From an uncultured Bacilli bacterium (GTDB lineage: Bacteria > Bacillota_I > Bacilli_A > RF39 > UBA660): a DNA stretch of 64,000 bases. The translations under genes and the position numbers were made by a program. This document shows positions 33,849 through 43,238 of this stretch, in pieces. Each line of letters begins with the position of its first letter. Within the stretch, counting starts at the first letter, position 1. Below the pieces are notes generated by a model. The model was not told the DNA's origin. It was given only the letters and a program-made list of their open reading frames with translations, and did no database searches. Where the stretch lies: NCBI GenBank assembly GCA_947629375.1, contig CANRDN010000003.1, positions 1 through 64,000 of the forward strand. The letters run 5' to 3'.

Positions 33849-34139
33849 ATGAAAAAGAAATTAATATTTTTATTATTAATGTGTTTAACATTTGCTGGAT
33901 GTTCATTTGGTAGTAAAAAGGATGCAGTAGATCTATTAAATGATAAGATTTCTAATTTGGATTCTTATAGTATTGAAGGAGTATTATCAATTTCTAATAA
34001 TGAAGATACTTATAATTATGATGTTACAGTGGCATACAAAGAAAAAGATAATTACAGAGTTAGTTTAGTAAATAAGTCTAATGGTCACGAACAAATAATT
34101 TTAAAAAGCAACGACGAAGTTTATGTTATAACTCACTAA
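33849..34139 (+). pseudogene. LolA-like/DUF4367-type lipoprotein, 5' half interrupted by a mobile element
   Basis: This is the first 90 codons of a lipoprotein gene (signal peptide with lipobox FAGC at about residue 18) followed by element sequence. After GAC GAA GTT TAT GTT AT the frame runs into ACT CAC TAA, giving a 96-aa stump. The second half is at 42510-43238 in the same frame, where the text continues ACT CCA GCC CTA AAT AAA. The N-terminal part (LNDKISNLDSYSIEGVLSI) is typical of LolA-like envelope lipoproteins. GGAG lies upstream. Confidence 0.93.
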
Positions 34140-34142
34140 AGT
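34119..34142 (+). other. attL, left junction of the mobile element
   Basis: The core GTTTATGTTATaACTC (34119-34134) recurs at the right end as GTTTATGTTATtACTC (42510-42525), 15 of 16 identical. Element sequence begins in or just after the core; the outer arm ACTCACTAAAGT (34131-34142) is nearly the inverse of ACTTTGGTGAGT at the right end (42500-42511). Confidence 0.88.
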
Positions 34143-34160
34143 ACGCAACAAAATATATTA

Positions 34161-34194
34161 AAAAGGAATATGAAAAAAGACTCATATTCCTTTT
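34161..34194 (+). terminator. Hairpin H1 at the left end of the element
   Basis: AAAAGGAATATGA (34161-34173) / TCATATTCCTTTT (34182-34194), a 13-bp stem, followed by GTTTTT. It stops host transcription entering the element. The same stem recurs at 35777-35815. Confidence 0.85.
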
Positions 34195-34200
34195 GTTTTT

Positions 34201-34218
34201 ATCTTATAACATACAATT
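34201..34218 (+). repeat. Recombination-site-like repeat R1
   Basis: ATCTTATAACATACAATT directly behind hairpin H1. It is the inverse of R2 (34315-34332, 17 of 18) and similar to R3 and R4 around the tyrosine recombinase. Confidence 0.75.
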
Positions 34219-34314
34219 TAACGATAACTCAAACTAATTAAATTATAGCACAAGCAAATAAATTATTGAATATTTTAGTAAAAAATAACTAAAAAAGTAT
34301 AAAAAATATCTAAT

Positions 34315-34332
34315 AATTGTATGTTATACGAT
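34315..34332 (-). repeat. Recombination-site-like repeat R2
   Basis: AATTGTATGTTATACGAT, inverse of R1, lying 28 nt before the 60-aa gene. The sequence after it (ATAATTTTTGAGAAAGGAGTG) resembles that after R4, which also precedes a gene. About 96 bases separate R1 and R2 and hold nothing I can name. Confidence 0.75.
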
Positions 34333-34359
34333 AATTTTTGAGAAAGGAGTGAATTTTGT

Positions 34360-34542
34360 ATGGGAAAGAAATATGTTTTAAATGTTAAAACAAAAACATA
34401 TCACATCATCGATGGATGTCATCATTCTAGACAATATCCAAAAAATGATCATAATTTCGAAGAGTATTCAACTGAAGATCAAATAATAAAAAAATATCAA
34501 CATTATGTTAGCAAATGTAAAATTTGTTTTAAAAACAAATAA
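34360..34542 (+). CDS. Small Cys/His protein (Ada-type zinc-finger-like)
   Basis: A 60-aa protein: KKYVLNVKTKTYHIIDGCHH in the first half and KCKICF at the end. This YVLN-x-KTxxxH-x3-C...CxxC layout recalls the metal-binding domain of Ada and similar small zinc fingers. It has a good site (GAAAGGAGTG) and follows repeat R2. Role on the element unknown; binding of DNA or metal is a guess. Confidence 0.75.
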   Translation: MGKKYVLNVKTKTYHIIDGCHHSRQYPKNDHNFEEYSTEDQIIKKYQHYVSKCKICFKNK

Positions 34543-34657
34543 TAGTCTAATAAACAATTAAAATATTGTATTTAAAATTAAATAATAAATTATATTTATT
34601 AGGAAATTTACGTATAGAAATATTGCAATAATTTTAGAAAATATACGGAGGTAAATT

Positions 34658-35770
34658 ATGTTAGTGATAATAATGGTAATTATCGTAATACTAAATTCGA
34701 TTAATCAATTGCAAGACGAGAAAAGACAAGAACAGGAATTAAGAATAAAAGAACAAGAAAAGATTGAAAAAGAAAATGCTGAAATTAATCGAAGTATAGA
34801 GATATATAAAAAATGTCAAGAAAATGGATATGATAGCAGTGATTCGGAAAAAAACGAAATACTTAGTAAATCTTTAAACTTATCACCATTAGAATTAAAA
34901 AAGCTTTATTTAAAGGGCGAAAAAACTGTTAAATTACAAGAAAAACAATTGTTTTTAAGTTATAGAAAACAAGAACAGGATTTTTTTGATGGTGAAAAAG
35001 CAAAAACAGCTATATATGGAAAAAGTAAATATTTAGAATTTTTAAATAAAAAATTAAATGCATTTAAAGCAGTATCGGCAATATCAGAGTTATCCGAAAA
35101 AATAGCTTTAAATAATGCGTATTCAGCAACACATCCGTCTAAATCAGATCCATATGTTTGGGCAGGAATGGCAAATGGTATAGCTGGACCTGTTGCTGCT
35201 CTTGCTACCGCAAATGACATTCAAAGAGAAAATGAGGAGTCAAGGCTAAGAGGAGAAATTAGTGCTCAAAAATCATTAAGGGATGTTGCTGATTGTTCTG
35301 CAAGGAAATCTCGTTCAGATAAATTGGTTGAGATAATACAAAATATGATGTTGAAAGTAACCGATGCATTAATAATTTTGGATACAAATAAATTAAAAAA
35401 CAAAATTAATTATGACAAAATAACCTATAGTGTTACAAGTACAAAAAACATAGAAGTTAATGTTAAATATACTTTATCAGATATAAAAGTATTAAAAAAG
35501 GATGGAATTTTGGATGGTAGTTTAAAAGTTACTGTATTTGATAATGATAATAAGATTATTGCCGAAGGTTATTATAATTGTAAAAATATCGAAATGGATG
35601 AAAGCCAAAATAGAACCGTTATTAATCCAGAAAATATTGGATTTAAAGATAAAGGCCAATTTAATGTTTTATGTGTTGTCAATAATTACAAAACAGTTAG
35701 AGATAAAAAAGACATTAGTCGTGTTGAAATTGAACCAATAAATTTATGGATAATTGAAAAATTTTACTAA
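34658..35770 (+). CDS. Membrane-anchored coiled-coil protein on the element
   Basis: A 370-aa protein with one N-terminal membrane helix (1-15), a long charged coiled coil to about residue 65, a middle part with the less charged stretch YVWAGMANGIAGPVAALATA (about 167-186), and a beta-rich C-terminal domain (about 255-370). No family recognised. It follows the 60-aa gene by 115 bases, with GGAGG before its ATG, and ends directly before hairpin H2. It and the 60-aa gene form the cassette between repeats R2 and R3. Confidence 0.75.
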   Translation: MLVIIMVIIVILNSINQLQDEKRQEQELRIKEQEKIEKENAEINRSIEIYKKCQENGYDSSDSEKNEILSKSLNLSPLELKKLYLKGEKTVKLQEKQLFLSYRKQEQDFFDGEKAKTAIYGKSKYLEFLNKKLNAFKAVSAISELSEKIALNNAYSATHPSKSDPYVWAGMANGIAGPVAALATANDIQRENEESRLRGEISAQKSLRDVADCSARKSRSDKLVEIIQNMMLKVTDALIILDTNKLKNKINYDKITYSVTSTKNIEVNVKYTLSDIKVLKKDGILDGSLKVTVFDNDNKIIAEGYYNCKNIEMDESQNRTVINPENIGFKDKGQFNVLCVVNNYKTVRDKKDISRVEIEPINLWIIEKFY

Positions 35771-35776
35771 AATTTA

Positions 35777-35815
35777 AAAAAGGAATATGAAGAGAAAATG
35801 CTCATATTCCTTTTT
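35777..35815 (+). terminator. Hairpin H2, copy of H1
   Basis: AAAAAGGAATATGA (35777-35790) / TCATATTCCTTTTT (35802-35815), a 14-bp stem with a T run. The stem matches H1 at 34161-34194, and repeat R3 follows it in the same way that R1 follows H1. Confidence 0.88.
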
Positions 35816-35817
35816 TT

Positions 35818-35837
35818 ATCGTATAACTTATAATTAT
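35818..35837 (+). repeat. Recombination-site-like repeat R3
   Basis: ATCGTATAACTTATAATTAT, a perfect 20-bp inverse of R4 (36883-36902). The pair frames the tyrosine recombinase gene. Confidence 0.85.
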
Positions 35838-35952
35838 GCGTCTTTTTTTATCAAACTTATTATAACAAACATTAGTAAAAATTGAAATATATTTAAAAAC
35901 ATTATTTTTAGGATATTTTTAGAATTAAAATACTAAGTTTGGAGGTGTAAGA

Positions 35953-36876
35953 ATGAAAAAAAATATAACTTACAATTATATCTTACAATTATGGTTAGAT
36001 AGTAAAAATAATTTAAAAATGCAGTCAAAGCTAAACTATGAATATTTGATTACGCAATACATAAAAAATTCTATTGGTGAAATTTCAATTTGTAAGATAA
36101 ACAAAATCAATATTAATAATCTATTTAATTCTTTAAAATCAAATGTGGCAATATCTACCCAAAAGAAACTTCTTTATATTATTAAGTCAAGTTTATCTTT
36201 TGCATATGATAATAATTACTGCAATTATATAAATTTGAGTAGTATTTGCTTAAAAAAAGAAAAGCATAATATTTTTATATTATCTAAAGATGAGCAAAGT
36301 CTACTAGAGAGTATATTAAAAGAAAAAATTAATATTAGAAAAATATGTATATTGTTATGTCTATACACTGGTCTTCGTGTTGGAGAAATAAGTGGTCTTA
36401 AATGGGAAGATATTGATTTTAGCAAGAAATCTTTAACAATTAAAAGAACAATTATAAGAGTTAGAGACAAGGAAAATCAAAACAATTCTAAAACTACTTT
36501 AATTGAAAGTACTCCTAAAAGTGAAACTTCTAAAAGAATAATTCCAATTCCCAATTTTCTTATTGAATTATTAAAAAAATTTAAAAGCAATGATAATTAT
36601 TTTATTTTATCAAATAGTGAAAGACTATATGATCCAAGATATTTAGAAACTTTTTATAAAAGAATATTAAAAAAATGCAATATTAGAAATAATAAGTTTC
36701 ATACTTTAAGACATACATTTGCAACTCGTTCTATTGAATCAAAGATGGATGTCAAAACTTTAAGCGAAATATTAGGTCATTCATCAGTTGAAATAACTTT
36801 AAAATTATATGTTCATCCAACATACGATATGAAAAAAGCGTCACTAGAAAAGTTAGTAGAATTTATGTCAATTTAG
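35953..36876 (+). CDS. Tyrosine recombinase (phage-integrase family)
   Basis: A 307-aa integrase. The N-terminal core-binding domain covers about 1-95 and the catalytic domain about 110-305. All catalytic residues are present: R142 (TGLRVGE), H250 and R253 (HTLRHTF), H276 (LGHSS) and the nucleophile Y286 (LKLYVHP). There is no arm-binding domain, so it is closer to XerC/D-like or cassette recombinases than to lambda Int. GGAGGTG precedes the ATG. It lies between the perfect inverted repeats R3 and R4, which are its likely sites. Confidence 0.93.
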   Translation: MKKNITYNYILQLWLDSKNNLKMQSKLNYEYLITQYIKNSIGEISICKINKININNLFNSLKSNVAISTQKKLLYIIKSSLSFAYDNNYCNYINLSSICLKKEKHNIFILSKDEQSLLESILKEKINIRKICILLCLYTGLRVGEISGLKWEDIDFSKKSLTIKRTIIRVRDKENQNNSKTTLIESTPKSETSKRIIPIPNFLIELLKKFKSNDNYFILSNSERLYDPRYLETFYKRILKKCNIRNNKFHTLRHTFATRSIESKMDVKTLSEILGHSSVEITLKLYVHPTYDMKKASLEKLVEFMSI

Positions 36877-36882
36877 TATCGG

Positions 36883-36902
36883 ATAATTATAAGTTATACG
36901 AT
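36883..36902 (-). repeat. Recombination-site-like repeat R4
   Basis: ATAATTATAAGTTATACGAT, exact inverse of R3, starting 6 nt after the recombinase stop. The leader GGAAAGGAGT and the next gene follow, as after R2. Confidence 0.85.
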
Positions 36903-36933
36903 ATTTTTTGTTGGAAAGGAGTATGAAATTAGT

Positions 36934-37179
36934 ATGAATGATGCAGTTGTAGCTGTAATTATTTTTGTGGTAATACCACTTGTTCTTATTGAGAGAATAT
37001 TAATTGCAAGTGAATTTTATAGGGTAGCCTGTATGAAGGGACACGGTGAAATGAAATACTATGCATTTGTATTATTATTTGGTATTACAGGATGTCTTTT
37101 AGTAACAGCTTTACCAAATGTGAATGAATATACAACAAAAATTAATAATAAAAAAATAAATAATTTACCAGAATTATAG
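36934..37179 (+). CDS. Small two-helix membrane protein
   Basis: An 81-aa protein with membrane helices at about 4-24 and 42-60 and a short polar tail. The loop contains FYRVACMKGH. GGAAAGGAG lies upstream, right behind repeat R4. Ten bases separate it from the 603-aa gene, so the two are co-transcribed. No family recognised. Confidence 0.7.
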   Translation: MNDAVVAVIIFVVIPLVLIERILIASEFYRVACMKGHGEMKYYAFVLLFGITGCLLVTALPNVNEYTTKINNKKINNLPEL

Positions 37180-37188
37180 GAGTGAAGT

Positions 37189-39000
37189 ATGGAGAAGTAT
37201 TCAAGAGTATTTTATTTTAATAATTGTTTATATTTGGAAAATAGTCCCATTGTAGTTTTAGCTGGAGCTATATTAAAAGATAATATTACAAATGATATTG
37301 TTGGACAACTTAAATTAAAAAATGTTAGTGAAAAAACAATAAAATCTATTGAATTTGAACTGGATTTATATGATTCAGCAGGTGAACCACAAGAAGAAAA
37401 AGTAAATAGTGAGTTTTTGGATTTAGACATTCAAAGTGATATGGTATTTGGTTCGGATTTAGCAATTGATTTACCATATAATAATACGAGATCCTTCAAA
37501 GTAAAAATAAATAAGGTTGTTTTCGTAAATGGAGAAACTTGGAACAATAAGAAAGAATTTGTCCGATTAGAAAAACAAAAACTTTTTTCAATTTTAGATT
37601 ATAATGAACTAGATTTTTTTTATAAAAAAATTGGGAATAATAATTCAAAATATGTTCCAATTGAAAAAAAAGACATTTGGATATGTTCTTGTGGTAATGT
37701 TAATTTGGCAAATGAAAAAGTATGTACTTGTTGTTATTTAGAAAAAAATGTAATTTTAAATATAAATTTTGATAAGTTGAAAAAAGAATCAAAAAAAGAA
37801 TTGTATGATATATCAAAATATTACTTGGAAGAAACATCAAATATTGATGATATAAGGACAGCAAAAGAAAATTTTTTGTATTTAGAAAATTATAAAGACT
37901 CAGATAAAAAAGTTGAAGAATGTACACAAAAAATAAAAAAGATTGAAAAAGAGAAAAAGGAAAAAACAAAGAAGATTAAAAAAATTTTAATTTTTTCTAT
38001 TTCAATAATATTGATTGTTGGAGCATATTTTTTAATAACAATGGTTATGATACCATTTAAAAATTATTACGATGCATTAACATATATGAAGCAAGAAAAA
38101 TATGAAGAAGCAGTTGAAAAGCTAAAAACCCTTCCTGAATATTTCGGTGATGCTAAAAAATTAATAAATAGTTGGTATTATAGTTATGCAAACAAACTTT
38201 TTGATGAAAAACAATATGAAAAAGCATATATGTTTTATAGAGAGTCAAGTTTAGACATAAACGATGAAAGAATGATTGAATGTACATATTTGTATGCAAG
38301 TGATCTTTTCGAACAAAAAGAATATGAAGAGGCATATGATAAGTTTAATAAATATCCAGACTATAAAGATTCAAAAAATAAGGAAAAAGAATCTGCATTA
38401 TATGTTGGAAATGACTATATGAACTTAGAAGAGTATAGTAAAGCCAAAGAATGGTATAAAAAAATTCCGGATGAAAAAAAGATTACTCAAGTTAATGAAA
38501 AAATGTATTCATATGTTAAATCTCACAATAACGATAAGGATGAAAAGACTTATGATTACCTAGCGTCATTGATTGAAGATAAATATAAAGAAGAAGATGC
38601 AATTAATATGTACAATGATTTGTACAAAACAAGATGTATAATAGTAACTAATAATGAAAAGGATAATACATTAGATGTTCAAAGTAGCATTAGTAGAAAA
38701 GAGAGATTGTATGCACATTTTAAGATACTTGATAGTAATATTCCAAAAGAAAAGATAAAATTATATGAGCAAATTGAGGGTAATAATTACGGAGATCACT
38801 TTAAAGAAAGATTCAATAAAGTTTATGGATATTCTGAATACAATTTCTCAAGAGATGATTGGGAGTTGGCGGAATATCGTCTTAACAAGTCTTTATCAGA
38901 CTCAGACTATATGTATATAAGCTATATGCATATAAGGCTTTTTGATGCAGTCACAGGAAAGGAATTATGTTATAGGGTTGTATCTTTATACTATGATTGA
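37189..39000 (+). CDS. Membrane protein with zinc ribbon and TPR-like repeats
   Basis: A 603-aa protein. Residues about 10-130 form a beta-rich domain with LENSPIVVLAGAILKDN and VKINKVVFVNGETW. A zinc ribbon follows (CSCGNVNLANEKVCTCC, about 165-181), then a charged coiled coil, one membrane helix (about 266-288), and four to five TPR-like helical hairpins with the repeat Y-x2-A-x4-K-x-LPEY / YEEAYDKFNKYPDYKDS (about 295-430). The C-terminal 150 residues are mixed. Proteins of this layout occur in Firmicutes chromosomes; the function is unknown. Confidence 0.8.
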   Translation: MEKYSRVFYFNNCLYLENSPIVVLAGAILKDNITNDIVGQLKLKNVSEKTIKSIEFELDLYDSAGEPQEEKVNSEFLDLDIQSDMVFGSDLAIDLPYNNTRSFKVKINKVVFVNGETWNNKKEFVRLEKQKLFSILDYNELDFFYKKIGNNNSKYVPIEKKDIWICSCGNVNLANEKVCTCCYLEKNVILNINFDKLKKESKKELYDISKYYLEETSNIDDIRTAKENFLYLENYKDSDKKVEECTQKIKKIEKEKKEKTKKIKKILIFSISIILIVGAYFLITMVMIPFKNYYDALTYMKQEKYEEAVEKLKTLPEYFGDAKKLINSWYYSYANKLFDEKQYEKAYMFYRESSLDINDERMIECTYLYASDLFEQKEYEEAYDKFNKYPDYKDSKNKEKESALYVGNDYMNLEEYSKAKEWYKKIPDEKKITQVNEKMYSYVKSHNNDKDEKTYDYLASLIEDKYKEEDAINMYNDLYKTRCIIVTNNEKDNTLDVQSSISRKERLYAHFKILDSNIPKEKIKLYEQIEGNNYGDHFKERFNKVYGYSEYNFSRDDWELAEYRLNKSLSDSDYMYISYMHIRLFDAVTGKELCYRVVSLYYD

Positions 39001-39340
39001 AACTGAGAATTTACAAATAGGTTGTTGCAAGCCACTATTAGCAGATGATAAATCCTGTTTTATAGTGTTGAATATAAAAAATTTAAAGCATAAAGATTCT
39101 TGCTTTGATAAAGTGGTTTTTAACAATGTTAAATTTATTGAAGGAAAAAATATAATAACTGGTGGTATTGATAATGGTATATATGCACACATATCTGATA
39201 AAGATGGATGTTGTAGATTTTCTATATGTTTTACAAATAATTATGACTATTTTATTTTCAATATTAGAATTAATGATATTGATGTTGGTAGATTTAAAGT
39301 TGATTTAGGAAAATACACAATATCTATGTGTCGCAAATAA
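38993..39340 (+). CDS. Uncharacterised small protein
   Basis: A 115-aa beta-rich protein with no signal or membrane segment, containing four cysteine-bearing strands (GCCKPL, DGCCRF). The start is uncertain. ATG 38993 overlaps the stop of the 603-aa gene and suggests translational coupling; an in-frame TTG at 38942 would add 17 residues inside that gene. No family recognised. Confidence 0.55.
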   Translation: MIETENLQIGCCKPLLADDKSCFIVLNIKNLKHKDSCFDKVVFNNVKFIEGKNIITGGIDNGIYAHISDKDGCCRFSICFTNNYDYFIFNIRINDIDVGRFKVDLGKYTISMCRK

Positions 39341-39424
39341 ATACATAATATATGGTATAAAAGGAAAATATTTTTTTATAAATTAATTTCGTTATTAGGG
39401 CATATACATTTATAGAGGTGTCCT

Positions 39425-39559
39425 ATGAAAGATAAATATAAAGTAAATAGTATATACAAAAATGAAGGTGTTGCATTAAATGAAGTAATGAACACCTTTT
39501 TAATTTCTTTTCTAGATAGAGAGTTTAATAATATAGGTATTTTTAGATATGATAACTGA
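39425..39559 (+). CDS. 44-aa protein overlapping the serine recombinase gene
   Basis: A short gene with a good GAGGTG site seven nt before its ATG. The product has LNEVMNTFLISFLDREF, an amphipathic helix that could bind a partner. It overlaps the recombinase start by 11 nt (ATGATAACTGA), so translation is coupled. A size and position like this would suit an accessory factor for the recombinase (directionality or stability). That is an inference. Confidence 0.6.
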   Translation: MKDKYKVNSIYKNEGVALNEVMNTFLISFLDREFNNIGIFRYDN

Positions 39560-41138
39560 TACATATAAAGTAGGTATTTATTTAAGATTATCTAGAGAAG
39601 ATGAAAGATTAGGAGAAAGTGGAAGTATTTCTACTCAAAGAGATTTATTGCTAAATTACATAAAGGATAACAATTTAACATATGTTGATGAATATGTAGA
39701 TGATGGGGTCTCAGGAACAACTTTTGATAGAGCTGGTTTTAACCGTATGATCAAAGATTGTGAAGAAAAAAAGATAAATATGATTATTACAAAAGACACA
39801 TCAAGACTTGGTCGTGATCATATTGAATTTGGTTATTATGTTGAAAGGTATTTTCCTGAACATAACATTAGGTATGTAGCAGTAAATGATGGAGTAGATA
39901 CTTTTAATAGAAATAATTCTGCTAATGATATGTTGGTGTTTAAAAGTGCTTTTAATGATATGTATGTTAAAGATATATCTAATAAACTAAGAAGTTCACT
40001 TTATACGAAGAAACGAAATGGCTTGTTTGTAGGGTGTTATGCTCCTTTTGGTTATAAGAAAAAAGACGATGATAAACACAAACTTGAAATAGATGAAGTA
40101 CAAGCAAATGTCGTTAGAAGAATATTCGATATGTTTATTGATGGTTATAGCCTAACGCAAATATGTGACATTTTAACAAGAGAGCATATTAAAACACCAA
40201 GTATGTATAAGAATATGAAATTAGGTCAAGATAATGTTCATTACGGAGTATGGTCACCAAGAACTGTGGATAATATTTTAAGAAATCCAACTTATATTGG
40301 AAATTTAACGCAATGTCGTAATAGAAAAGTAAGTTATAAATCTAAAAAGGTAGTTCATACGAGTCCTGATGATTGGGTAATTGCTTACAATGCTGTAGAA
40401 TCAATTATTGATAAAGAAACATTTGAATTAGCTGAAAAAATGTTTAAAAGTAATAAAAATCACGGAACCAAAGGAAATGGCATAACCGATAAGCTTTTAT
40501 TGAGAGGGTTAATTTATTGTAGGGAATGTCATCATACGATAGGGTTTAGAGATCATCCACAAAAAACAGACAAATATGGATTAGTTCATAGAATTTATGG
40601 TAATTGTAATTATTGGTCTAAAAGAAAAAAACAAAATGTATGCACACCTCATTCAATAAAATATAGTGATGTAGAAGATAAAGTTTTAGAAGATTTAAAA
40701 GAAAATATAAAAAGATATTATGATAAAGACAATGTCGAAAATATAATTATGAATTCCCAAAGATTAGAAAAGAAAATAAACAATATAAAATGTGAAATTA
40801 ATAAACTTAAAAATAATATTGAATCTTGTAATAAAAAGATAGAAGCTTGTTACAATGATAAATTAGAAGGAAATATTACTTTAGAAATATATAAAAGAAT
40901 CTTTGACAATCTAACATTAGAAATAGATAGTGATAATAAGAAAATAAAGGAAGAAGAAAAACTCTTGGATGATTTAGAAAACAATAAGTCTAGGTTTAAA
41001 GATTTATATTTAAAAAAAATAAAAGAACTTTTGGATATGAAAATTTTATCTCGTTCATTAATTTGTTCTTTGATTGAAAAAATAGAGATTGATGAAAATA
41101 AAAATATTAATATATTTTATAAATTTGGAGTAATTTAA
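39549..41138 (+). CDS. Large serine recombinase
   Basis: A 529-aa site-specific recombinase, probably the integrase of the element. The N-terminal resolvase domain has the catalytic serine S15 (YLRLSRED) and TKDTSRLGRDHIEFGYY. The recombinase domain contains YAPFGYKK and the ARRIFDMFIDGYS-like VRRIFDMFIDGY. The zinc ribbon starts CREC (324-327) and continues with GNCNYW and VCTPH. A coiled coil at about 400-480 is typical of this family and controls directionality. It is translated from inside the 44-aa gene. GC content is similar to its neighbours. Confidence 0.95.
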   Translation: MITDTYKVGIYLRLSREDERLGESGSISTQRDLLLNYIKDNNLTYVDEYVDDGVSGTTFDRAGFNRMIKDCEEKKINMIITKDTSRLGRDHIEFGYYVERYFPEHNIRYVAVNDGVDTFNRNNSANDMLVFKSAFNDMYVKDISNKLRSSLYTKKRNGLFVGCYAPFGYKKKDDDKHKLEIDEVQANVVRRIFDMFIDGYSLTQICDILTREHIKTPSMYKNMKLGQDNVHYGVWSPRTVDNILRNPTYIGNLTQCRNRKVSYKSKKVVHTSPDDWVIAYNAVESIIDKETFELAEKMFKSNKNHGTKGNGITDKLLLRGLIYCRECHHTIGFRDHPQKTDKYGLVHRIYGNCNYWSKRKKQNVCTPHSIKYSDVEDKVLEDLKENIKRYYDKDNVENIIMNSQRLEKKINNIKCEINKLKNNIESCNKKIEACYNDKLEGNITLEIYKRIFDNLTLEIDSDNKKIKEEEKLLDDLENNKSRFKDLYLKKIKELLDMKILSRSLICSLIEKIEIDENKNINIFYKFGVI

Positions 41139-41143
41139 GATGT

Positions 41144-41172
41144 TTGACAACTATATGTGGATATGCTAATAT
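41144..41172 (+). promoter_or_regulatory. Strong promoter of the M20 peptidase leader
   Basis: A consensus TTGACA (41144-41149), exactly 17 bp, then TAATAT (41167-41172) with the TGc extension. It is the best sigma-A-type promoter in the window. It starts 5 bp behind the recombinase stop. Confidence 0.88.
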
Positions 41173-41211
41173 AAAGCCATCAATGAGAATTTGAGAAAGG
41201 ATGTTATTTAT

Positions 41212-41274
41212 ATGAAAAAGATTATAAACAATAAAACTTGGCGTCATATGGGTAACACTTATACAAATCGATAA
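41212..41274 (+). CDS. 20-aa leader peptide of an attenuator
   Basis: A 21-codon frame, MKKIINNKTWRHMGNTYTNR, with AAAGGA upstream. Its last third overlaps the first strand of hairpin 1-2. The product is not expected to have a function of its own; stalling of the ribosome on it should decide which hairpin forms downstream. The peptide resembles the short leaders before ribosome-protection and ABC-F resistance genes in kind, but I cannot assign it to a known one. Confidence 0.75.
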   Translation: MKKIINNKTWRHMGNTYTNR

Positions 41275-41321
41275 CAATTTCGATTATAGGTATAAGTGGA
41301 TTTTTGCATTGCTTATACCTG
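41255..41321 (+). promoter_or_regulatory. Mutually exclusive leader hairpins
   Basis: CACTTATAC (41256-41264) pairs with GTATAAGTG (41290-41298), with an inner stem AATCGA / TCGATT. The second strand can instead pair further down: AGGTATAAG (41288-41296) with CTTATACCT (41312-41320). The two folds share bases and cannot both form. Ribosome position on the leader frame (41212-41274) would select between them. Confidence 0.78.
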
Positions 41322-41346
41322 TATGAAAAATAAATAAAAGAACTTA

Positions 41347-41389
41347 GAGGAGTACAGGTTTAAAACTATAACTTGTATTCCTTTTTTAT
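41347..41389 (+). terminator. Intrinsic terminator in the leader of the M20 peptidase
   Basis: AGGAGTACAGGTT (41348-41360) pairs with AACTTGTATTCCT (41370-41382, two G-U pairs), then a T run. It stops transcription before the peptidase unless it is overridden. The gene begins about 65 bases later. Confidence 0.85.
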
Positions 41390-41452
41390 AGAGATAGTGT
41401 TTTCAAAGGGTAAAGCAATGTAGTAAAAAAATGAAAAAGGAAGGAAAATACT

Positions 41453-42490
41453 ATGGATGTAAAAGAAATATTAAAAAAATTAGTTAGTTATAATACAATC
41501 AAAGACAATCAAAACAAAGAGATTATGGATTTTATTGAGAATTATTTAAAAAATTATAATTTTACTATTACAAGAATTAATAAATGTTTAGTTGCTTATA
41601 ATAGTGAAACACCTAATATTGGCTTCATTGGGCATACTGATACAGTTGATTATGAATCGTGGGATGGTAATCCATTCATACTTCAGGAAAAGAAAGACAA
41701 GTTAATTGGTCTTGGAGCTTGTGATATGAAAGGCGGTTTAGCGGCAATACTATCTACTATTTCAAAAATAGATTTGACTAAAAATAAACTAGCACTATAT
41801 TTTACAAATGATGAAGAAATTAGTTTTGAAGGAATAAAAACTATAAAAGGATATATTATTCCTGAAAATATTATTATTGGAGAACCTACCAACAACATAC
41901 CTATTTATGGTACTAAAGGAGTTTTAGAATTAAAAATAGAATTTTATGGAATTAAGTGTCACTCTTCAACTCCAGAGAAAGGTGTTAATGCTATTTATGA
42001 AAGCATTAAGTTTATTGAAACTATTCAAAATTATTATGAAAAGGAAATAAAGAAAGAAATAGTAAAAGATTTTGAAGTTCCTTATACAACGATGAATATA
42101 GGAATGATTAAAGGTGGAGAGTCCGTTAACTCTGTAGCAGGAAAATGTGAGATTAGTATAGACTTTAGAATTGCAAAGAGTGAACAAATAGAAAGAATAA
42201 CTAAAAAGATTAAAGACTTATTAAAACAATACAATTCTAAATTAACGATAAAACAAAATATTCCACCAAAGATAAATAAAACTGATATAGGATTCTTAGA
42301 AGAAATTTCTTCTAAAAAAGAAACTAAGTGTTATTTAACAGAGGGATCATATATTGATAAAAACTTTATTATATTAGGTCCTGGACCAGATACATCTCAT
42401 CAAAAAAATGAATATGTTAATTTAAGTTCACTAGAAGAAACAGAAAAACTATATAAAAAAATAATAGAATTTTATAATGGGTTAAAATAG
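41453..42490 (+). CDS. M20 metallopeptidase/deacylase (ArgE/DapE family)
   Basis: A 345-aa di-zinc amidohydrolase cutting an N-acyl or peptide bond. Metal and catalytic residues are in place: H61 (GHTDTV, with D63), D91 (GACDMKGG), E121 and E122 (NDEE), E144 (EPTN) and H316 (TSHQ), with the dimerisation domain (about 170-280, HSSTPEKGVNA) between. The true substrate is unknown. It is the only gene behind a strong attenuated promoter, placed as cargo at the right end of a mobile element, which suggests removal of a toxic compound rather than lysine or arginine synthesis. AAGGAAGG precedes the ATG. Confidence 0.92.
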   Translation: MDVKEILKKLVSYNTIKDNQNKEIMDFIENYLKNYNFTITRINKCLVAYNSETPNIGFIGHTDTVDYESWDGNPFILQEKKDKLIGLGACDMKGGLAAILSTISKIDLTKNKLALYFTNDEEISFEGIKTIKGYIIPENIIIGEPTNNIPIYGTKGVLELKIEFYGIKCHSSTPEKGVNAIYESIKFIETIQNYYEKEIKKEIVKDFEVPYTTMNIGMIKGGESVNSVAGKCEISIDFRIAKSEQIERITKKIKDLLKQYNSKLTIKQNIPPKINKTDIGFLEEISSKKETKCYLTEGSYIDKNFIILGPGPDTSHQKNEYVNLSSLEETEKLYKKIIEFYNGLK

Positions 42491-42499
42491 AAGTTTAAA

Positions 42500-42525
42500 A
42501 CTTTGGTGAGTTTATGTTATTACTC
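42500..42525 (+). other. attR, right junction of the mobile element
   Basis: Element arm ACTTTGGTGAGT (42500-42511) runs into the core GTTTATGTTAT (42510-42520). Host sequence resumes as ACT CCA GCC CTA, in frame with the 5' half of the lipoprotein gene. Confidence 0.88.
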
Positions 42526-43238
42526 CAGCCCTAAATAAAAGTTTCAAGTTTCAAAGTAACTGGCCATTAAATAATTCACAGATTTATATCCTAGAATCAA
42601 TTTTAAACGATGTTAATTCAGATAGTAACAGAAAAGTAAAAGAAGTATCTGGTGGATATGAAATAACAACAAAAGTTAATTATCCTAATAATATTGGTTT
42701 AATTAATCAAAAAATCTACTTAGATGAAGATGCTAATATTAAGAAAATAGAAGTTTATAATGACAAAGGCATAACAGAAATGTTAATGACATTTAATAAA
42801 ATAAATGAAAAGCCTACATTCGATTCTGATTTCTTTGATTTAGATAGTATTATTTCAGATATTGATGTAGAAGAAAAAGACGAAGAAACAACTGGTTCTA
42901 TCGACAATATAATTTATCCACTATATGTTCCAAGTGGTACAGTATTAACTAATGAAGAAAAAGTAAGCAAAGATAAAGGAGAAAGAATTATTCTAACTTT
43001 TGATGGAGAAAAACCTTTCTTATTAGTAGAAGAAACAGCAAATGTGGAAAAAGATTTCTCTATAGTACCAATATTTGGTGAACCATCATTTTTAAATGAT
43101 ACTGTTGGTGCGATAACTGAAAACTCACTTAGTTGGACTAGTGGAGGAATTGATTACTATTTAGTATCAGATGTTATGGGAACAGCAGAACTTATTGAGA
43201 TTGCTAATTCTATAAGTGTTATACCGATAATGAAATAG
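42510..43238 (+). pseudogene. LolA-like/DUF4367-type lipoprotein, 3' half
   Basis: An open frame of 242 codons plus stop, without its own start near the junction, encoding PALNKSFKFQSNWPLNNSQI and a domain ending GTAELIEIANSISVIP that is typical of DUF4367. Joined at the core to 33849-34118 it gives one 332-aa lipoprotein. Internal ATG 42780 could yield a 152-aa fragment but has no good ribosome-binding site. An intrinsic terminator follows. Confidence 0.93.

Follow-up and report, generated by a model that had tools for sequence, protein, structure and literature searches.

Background

IMEs with a serine recombinase have very short direct repeats and disrupt dispensable genes; in Tn4451, the crossover is 2 bp long, and TndX works without a directionality factor (PMC5704250). 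The island described here lies in a stretch of 64,000 nucleotides (the window; positions 1-64,000 of contig CANRDN010000003.1, assembly GCA_947629375.1, uncultured Bacilli bacterium (RF39; UBA660)) and resembles the Tn4451-type IMEs of Firmicutes in its single large serine recombinase, the 2 bp shared by its junctions, and the apparently dispensable gene that is hit (PMC5704250). The Mob_Pre relaxase of these IMEs recurs in fuller relatives of the island, whereas the window copy is without a relaxase, its target is a lipoprotein codon, and its mobility is argued from relatives.

Hin is a serine invertase whose gene lies inside the segment that it inverts, together with an outward-firing promoter. 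One of two candidate invertible segments of the island, inverton 2, is built alike, with a recombinase within its own segment and an outward promoter-like site, but the recombinase is of the tyrosine class, and a second segment with only a promoter-like site lies nearby. Bacteroidales ICEs carry invertible promoters, among which are two neighbouring invertible regions that may share one invertase (PMC8748976). Among them, IP-ARG-2 is like the island in that a mobile-element invertase apparently serves two neighbouring invertible promoters, but it differs in its invertible regions downstream of the invertase gene, its Bacteroidales hosts, and its resistance or glycan cargo (PMC8748976). In Mycoplasma systems of the Xer1/HvsR type, a tyrosine recombinase likewise stands beside loci switched by inversion; these are surface-protein gene families (PMC2268961), whereas the arrangement found here is island-borne and has the recombinase gene inside the putatively invertible segment.

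Each half of the finding, IME-type insertion and invertible promoters on a mobile element, has precedent. Judged by the searchable literature, what appears to be new is the combination, the docking codon, and the occurrence in this group of a self-inverting cassette of the tyrosine type. The best explanation of the whole, a serine-recombinase island that is a relaxase-less relative of an IME family of uncultured gut Bacilli and that carries an inverting cassette, two switched operons, and an attenuated M20 gene, is regarded as highly probable. With moderate confidence, we further propose that one lipoprotein codon serves one family of mobile islands as its docking site in many genera of uncultured gut Bacilli, and that the self-inverting tyrosine-recombinase cassette of the window island switches two cargo operons together. 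If true, a horizontally acquired module would arrive with its own phase variation, which suggests that mobile cargo can come with an on/off switch of its own. A single gene codon is a recurrent docking site in this group, which is without cultured reference systems and in which the island is resolved to the base pair, and the predicted attP/attB pairs lend themselves to tests of a new set of serine integrases.

The split lipoprotein gene

33849-34139, plus strand: 5' half of the interrupted lipoprotein gene (its host codons end at 34118, and the frame then runs into the element to a stop)
42510-43238, plus strand: 3' half of the split lipoprotein gene

As the preliminary description had stated, positions 33849-34118 and 42510-43238 are in the same frame, and their join is a stop-free lipoprotein of 332 aa that reads NDEVYVIT-PALNKSFKF. 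It had also noted that insertion would be doubtful if no intact homologue existed or if related genomes carried the halves as separate genes. When the joined protein was searched against 12 genomes of the genus, intact homologues were found: the lipoprotein was uninterrupted in 9 of 11 congeners, at 69-76% identity and (near) full length. In the remaining two (G004 and G007), the interruption falls at the same codon, and the inserts are different and smaller (~4.0 kb and ~3.1 kb, respectively), with other cargo than the window's and, as their last gene, a serine recombinase 67% or 63% identical to that of the window. The dN/dS of the window halves against congeners resembles values between intact congeners, which fits a recent or reversible insertion, and the target gene appears to be dispensable. 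A family-wide search returned two lipoprotein matches in many genomes, among which split genes were indistinguishable from split alignments.

Junctions and predicted attachment sites

34113-34142, plus strand: attL, composed of host arm, crossover GT (34125-34126), and element arm TATAACTCACTAAAGT
42500-42528, plus strand: attR, composed of element arm ACTTTGGTGAGTTTAT, crossover GT (42516-42517), and host arm

The repeat at the junctions, GTTTATGTTATAACTC (34119-34134) and GTTTATGTTATTACTC (42510-42525), had been described as a duplicated 16-bp core. As a repeat it stands, with a shared run of 12 nt (15/16 with one mismatch), and a search that allowed 2 mismatches found no match in the window beyond these two copies; however, at least two matches at this laxness were obtained in 13 of 100 shuffles, so that the junction repeat alone is modest evidence. 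As a crossover, the 16-bp core was rejected. GT was the sole position common to all attL/attR pairs of 12 complete elements with both junctions, and the identity run, 12 nt in the window, was 2 nt in five of the 12; the apparent core is therefore read as a 2-bp crossover plus chance likeness in the window copy. From GT to GT, the element measures 8,391 bp. Its element-side arms, when joined, give a palindromic attP (ACTTTGGTGAGTTTAT-GT-TATAACTCACTAAAGT in the window copy), and the attP arms of the 12 elements agree at 9-16 of 16 positions, a level that was reached by 0-62 of 5000 shuffles. The predicted sequence of the circle junction is ACTTTGGTGAGTTTATGTTATAACTCACTAAAGT.

The serine recombinase would join this palindromic attP to attB at the Tyr-Val codons TAT-GTT, near lipoprotein residue 93, with the 2-bp GT as crossover; the site is given by the comparison of elements, and the chemistry and any excision are presumed.

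The serine recombinase and its relatives

39549-41138, plus strand: large serine recombinase, putative integrase (Resolvase, Recombinase, zinc ribbon)

With Pfam matches to Resolvase (1.8e-21) and Recombinase (6.9e-25) and a zinc ribbon, the protein has the domain set of a large serine integrase, and a 2-bp crossover between distinct attP and attB, as predicted from GT in the 12 elements, is likewise characteristic of this class. The catalytic-region residues are invariant across nine relatives. The same split gene is present in family members whose serine recombinase is 64-80% identical. In named genomes, 37 loci with a serine recombinase 55-86% identical to the window's were found, at 35 of which the recombinase has half of the lipoprotein gene next to it on one or both sides (at 30 the 3' half follows it, and five more have the 5' half); at the other two, the contigs end near the recombinase. 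All 37 are from MAGs whose labels are Bacilli or similar names, Candidatus Onthousia, Faecimonas, and Aphodocola among them, and several are the same MAGs as genomes with a G number (e.g., L145/G004 and L160/G007).

From these data, we infer that the large serine recombinase was the enzyme of the insert's entry. Site-specific insertion into the lipoprotein gene, as claimed in the preliminary description, is strongly supported: the recombinase tracks the site, and the decisive evidence is comparative, namely the intact homologues of the congeners and the two congeners split at the same codon.

Cargo and candidate invertible segments

34161-34194, scored on both strands: terminator-like hairpin, opposite the promoter-like site of inverton 1
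34200-34333: inverton 1 (~96 bp between the inverted repeats 34200-34218 and 34315-34333)
34242-34250, minus strand: extended -10 of inverton 1 (TGCTATAAT), leftward and away from the gene at 34360 (OFF as assembled), called from sequence only
34360-34542, plus strand: 60-aa Cys/His-rich small protein, without Pfam match; a 71% identical relative occurs in other same-site elements
34658-35770, plus strand: 370-aa protein with an apparent N-terminal membrane segment, without family match
35776-35816, plus strand: terminator-like hairpin (z = -4.5), adjoining inverton 2 at its left repeat
35817-36903: inverton 2 (repeats 35817-35840 and 36880-36903, 23/24 complementary), with the tyrosine recombinase gene inside
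35859-35867, minus strand: outward extended -10 of inverton 2 (TGTTATAAT), leftward, OFF for the gene at 36934 as assembled
35953-36876, plus strand: tyrosine recombinase, putative invertase of both invertons
36934-37179, plus strand: 81-aa membrane-type protein, presumably the first gene switched by inverton 2; a 34% relative occurs in the same order in L106
37189-39000, plus strand: 603-aa protein with zinc-ribbon-like cysteines, one membrane segment, and TPR repeats
38942-39340, plus strand: 132-aa ORF, start overlapping the preceding gene
39425-39559, plus strand: small ORF of 44 aa that precedes the integrase gene; the 51-aa ORF at the same place in other elements is 52% identical

That the element carries two recombinases of different classes, as described earlier, agrees with the Phage_integrase match of this second enzyme (E 8.5e-27) against the Resolvase and Recombinase matches of the first. 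The repeats of invertons 1 and 2 have the same motif, and inverton 1 holds only a promoter-like site. Homologues of the tyrosine recombinase in other genera (44-73% identity) are mostly repeat-flanked: a narrow repeat test found flanking inverted repeats in the window and at 15 of 21 homologous loci, a score reached by 0 of 40 shuffles, and among the 6 of 22 recombinase loci without a flanking repeat, one is cut by the contig end and one has repeats further out. Most homologues have an outward -10-like site in the interval from the upstream repeat to the recombinase gene; in many, a terminator hairpin adjoins one repeat, and past the other repeat there is a ribosome-binding site. Sigma-70-like matches in this region did not exceed the level in shuffled sequence, and it is by position and recurrence that the promoters are called. 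With inverted repeats that bound a segment with an outward promoter, the latter judged from the letters of the DNA, the anatomy is that of an inverton. A five-gene operon (50-69% identity) lies to the right of the recombinase in L100, on contig 31 of the window's own genome (G000), and to the left in L123 and L124, which implies inversion, as seen across different species and not within one strain.

By this anatomy, the tyrosine recombinase is probably an invertase and not an integrase. It would be cargo that flips its own gene segment and probably also the nearby 0.13-kb segment, an inversion argued from homologues in both arrangements. Depending on the inversion, the outward promoter would face either a terminator (OFF, the assembled state) or the operon (ON), and a single island would switch two cargo operons. 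In the assembled state, a terminator hairpin stands opposite each of the two promoter-like sites, so both operons are probably OFF. The genome assembly shows a single state of both segments, which would also suit regulatory operators or decayed sites that no longer invert; this reading is unlikely, given the almost perfectly matched inverted repeats, the intact reading frame of the tyrosine recombinase, and the homologues in both arrangements, and inversion is preferred.

The L100 locus, adjoined by the five-gene operon, would give the window's genome another recombinase cassette of the self-inverting kind. Further invertible sites were sought elsewhere in this genome and rejected, two one-mismatch hits looking like chance matches in coding sequence. 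A promoter-sized pair of inverted repeats resembling inverton 1 lies ~1.9 kb upstream of a recombinase homologue at L121:3827-3980. On contig 18 of G249 (L099, L116), a tyrosine recombinase homologue lies between two inverted 0.63-kb copies of a sugar transferase-like gene, which suggests a surface polysaccharide operon switched by inversion.

Kind of element

No relaxase or transfer genes were found in the element by Pfam search and a remnant search of the window copy. The earlier statement that transfer genes are lacking thus holds for the window copy; it does not extend to fuller same-site relatives, which have a near-complete Mob_Pre relaxase inside attL (L131, L146, L149, L150, L158, and L167; E 6.3e-27) or Mob_Pre relaxase fragments only (L132 and L143). 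Of the features of an IME, the comparison supports site-specific integration by the element's own recombinase, and the relaxase or other mobilization function is lacking in the window copy. Because the fuller relatives carry Mob_Pre, the window island is best read as a relaxase-less relative of IMEs, and because no relaxase remnant is detectable in it, the past mobility of this copy is deduced from the relatives. Cargo varies between elements at the lipoprotein site; the interval from the recombinase to attR is often occupied by a variable gene, Bro-N or Fic elsewhere and M20 in the window.

Other element classes fitted less well. The serine recombinase reached 114.9 bits against CcrB of SCC (family cutoff 900). 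A prophage was rejected, as the best viral-contig identity was 38%, phage structural genes were not recognised in the element by Pfam, and close relatives were absent from the viral contig collection searched. The Rfam search gave no match and the PADLOC search no defence match.

A developmentally or conditionally excised element that interrupts a gene, like skin or the fdxN element, with the lipoprotein restored by excision, would agree with the open frames kept by both lipoprotein halves and with their dN/dS, and the serine recombinase does score against XisF. That score, 106.7 bits, is below the family cutoff of 375 for the fdxN type; intact halves are expected equally from recent insertion, cargo is different in every element, relatives carry a relaxase, and the insert is simply absent from most congeners, so that this explanation is quite improbable and a mobile island is preferred. 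Insertion by the tyrosine recombinase, with the serine recombinase as passenger, is scarcely credible even though tyrosine integrases are the commoner type in islands and the 12-nt run of the window copy would fit a tyrosine-type overlap: the serine recombinase tracks the insertion site in every close relative with enough contig, whereas the two congener elements and the 19 other recombinase-bearing regions examined lack the tyrosine recombinase, whose homologues lie at other loci between inverted repeats, as befits an invertase.

Beyond the first element, L146 has a second Mob_Pre relaxase gene at the same site (L146:1037-15737), which suggests tandem accretion. The elements of two congeners (L022:792-2962 and L023:769-1992) carry cargo that reads as type VII secretion-like (WXG/LXG-type), its two large proteins having no Pfam match.

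The M20 gene and its leader

41196-41452, plus strand: structured attenuator-like leader, with leader peptide at 41212-41274 (MKKIINNKTWRHMGNTYTNR)
41453-42490, plus strand: M20-family deacylase or dipeptidase (ArgE/DapE-like), last gene of the element

The M20 gene would be a further cargo gene under a transcription attenuator of the amino-acid type. Its leader is strongly structured (z = -6.8) and is conserved in five other genera, upstream of M20 genes with 69-84% identity. An antibiotic-resistance gene with a tet(M)- or erm-like leader was considered and dropped, because the leader had no plasmid match and a covariance model related it to histidine attenuators. Like histidine-operon attenuators, the predicted leader combines a leader peptide with mutually exclusive hairpins; unlike their His-rich peptides, that of the window has a single His codon, and the amino acid sensed is uncertain. 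A likely role of the M20 gene is amino-acid salvage under starvation control. The covariance model gave ten weaker matches with His-rich leader peptides (such as NHHHNSLHLLIRH), several of which precede genes that read like HisZ/HisS and HisG (named by sequence reading). In G291, a covariance-matched leader precedes an operon with an M20 protein of 49% identity among its products.
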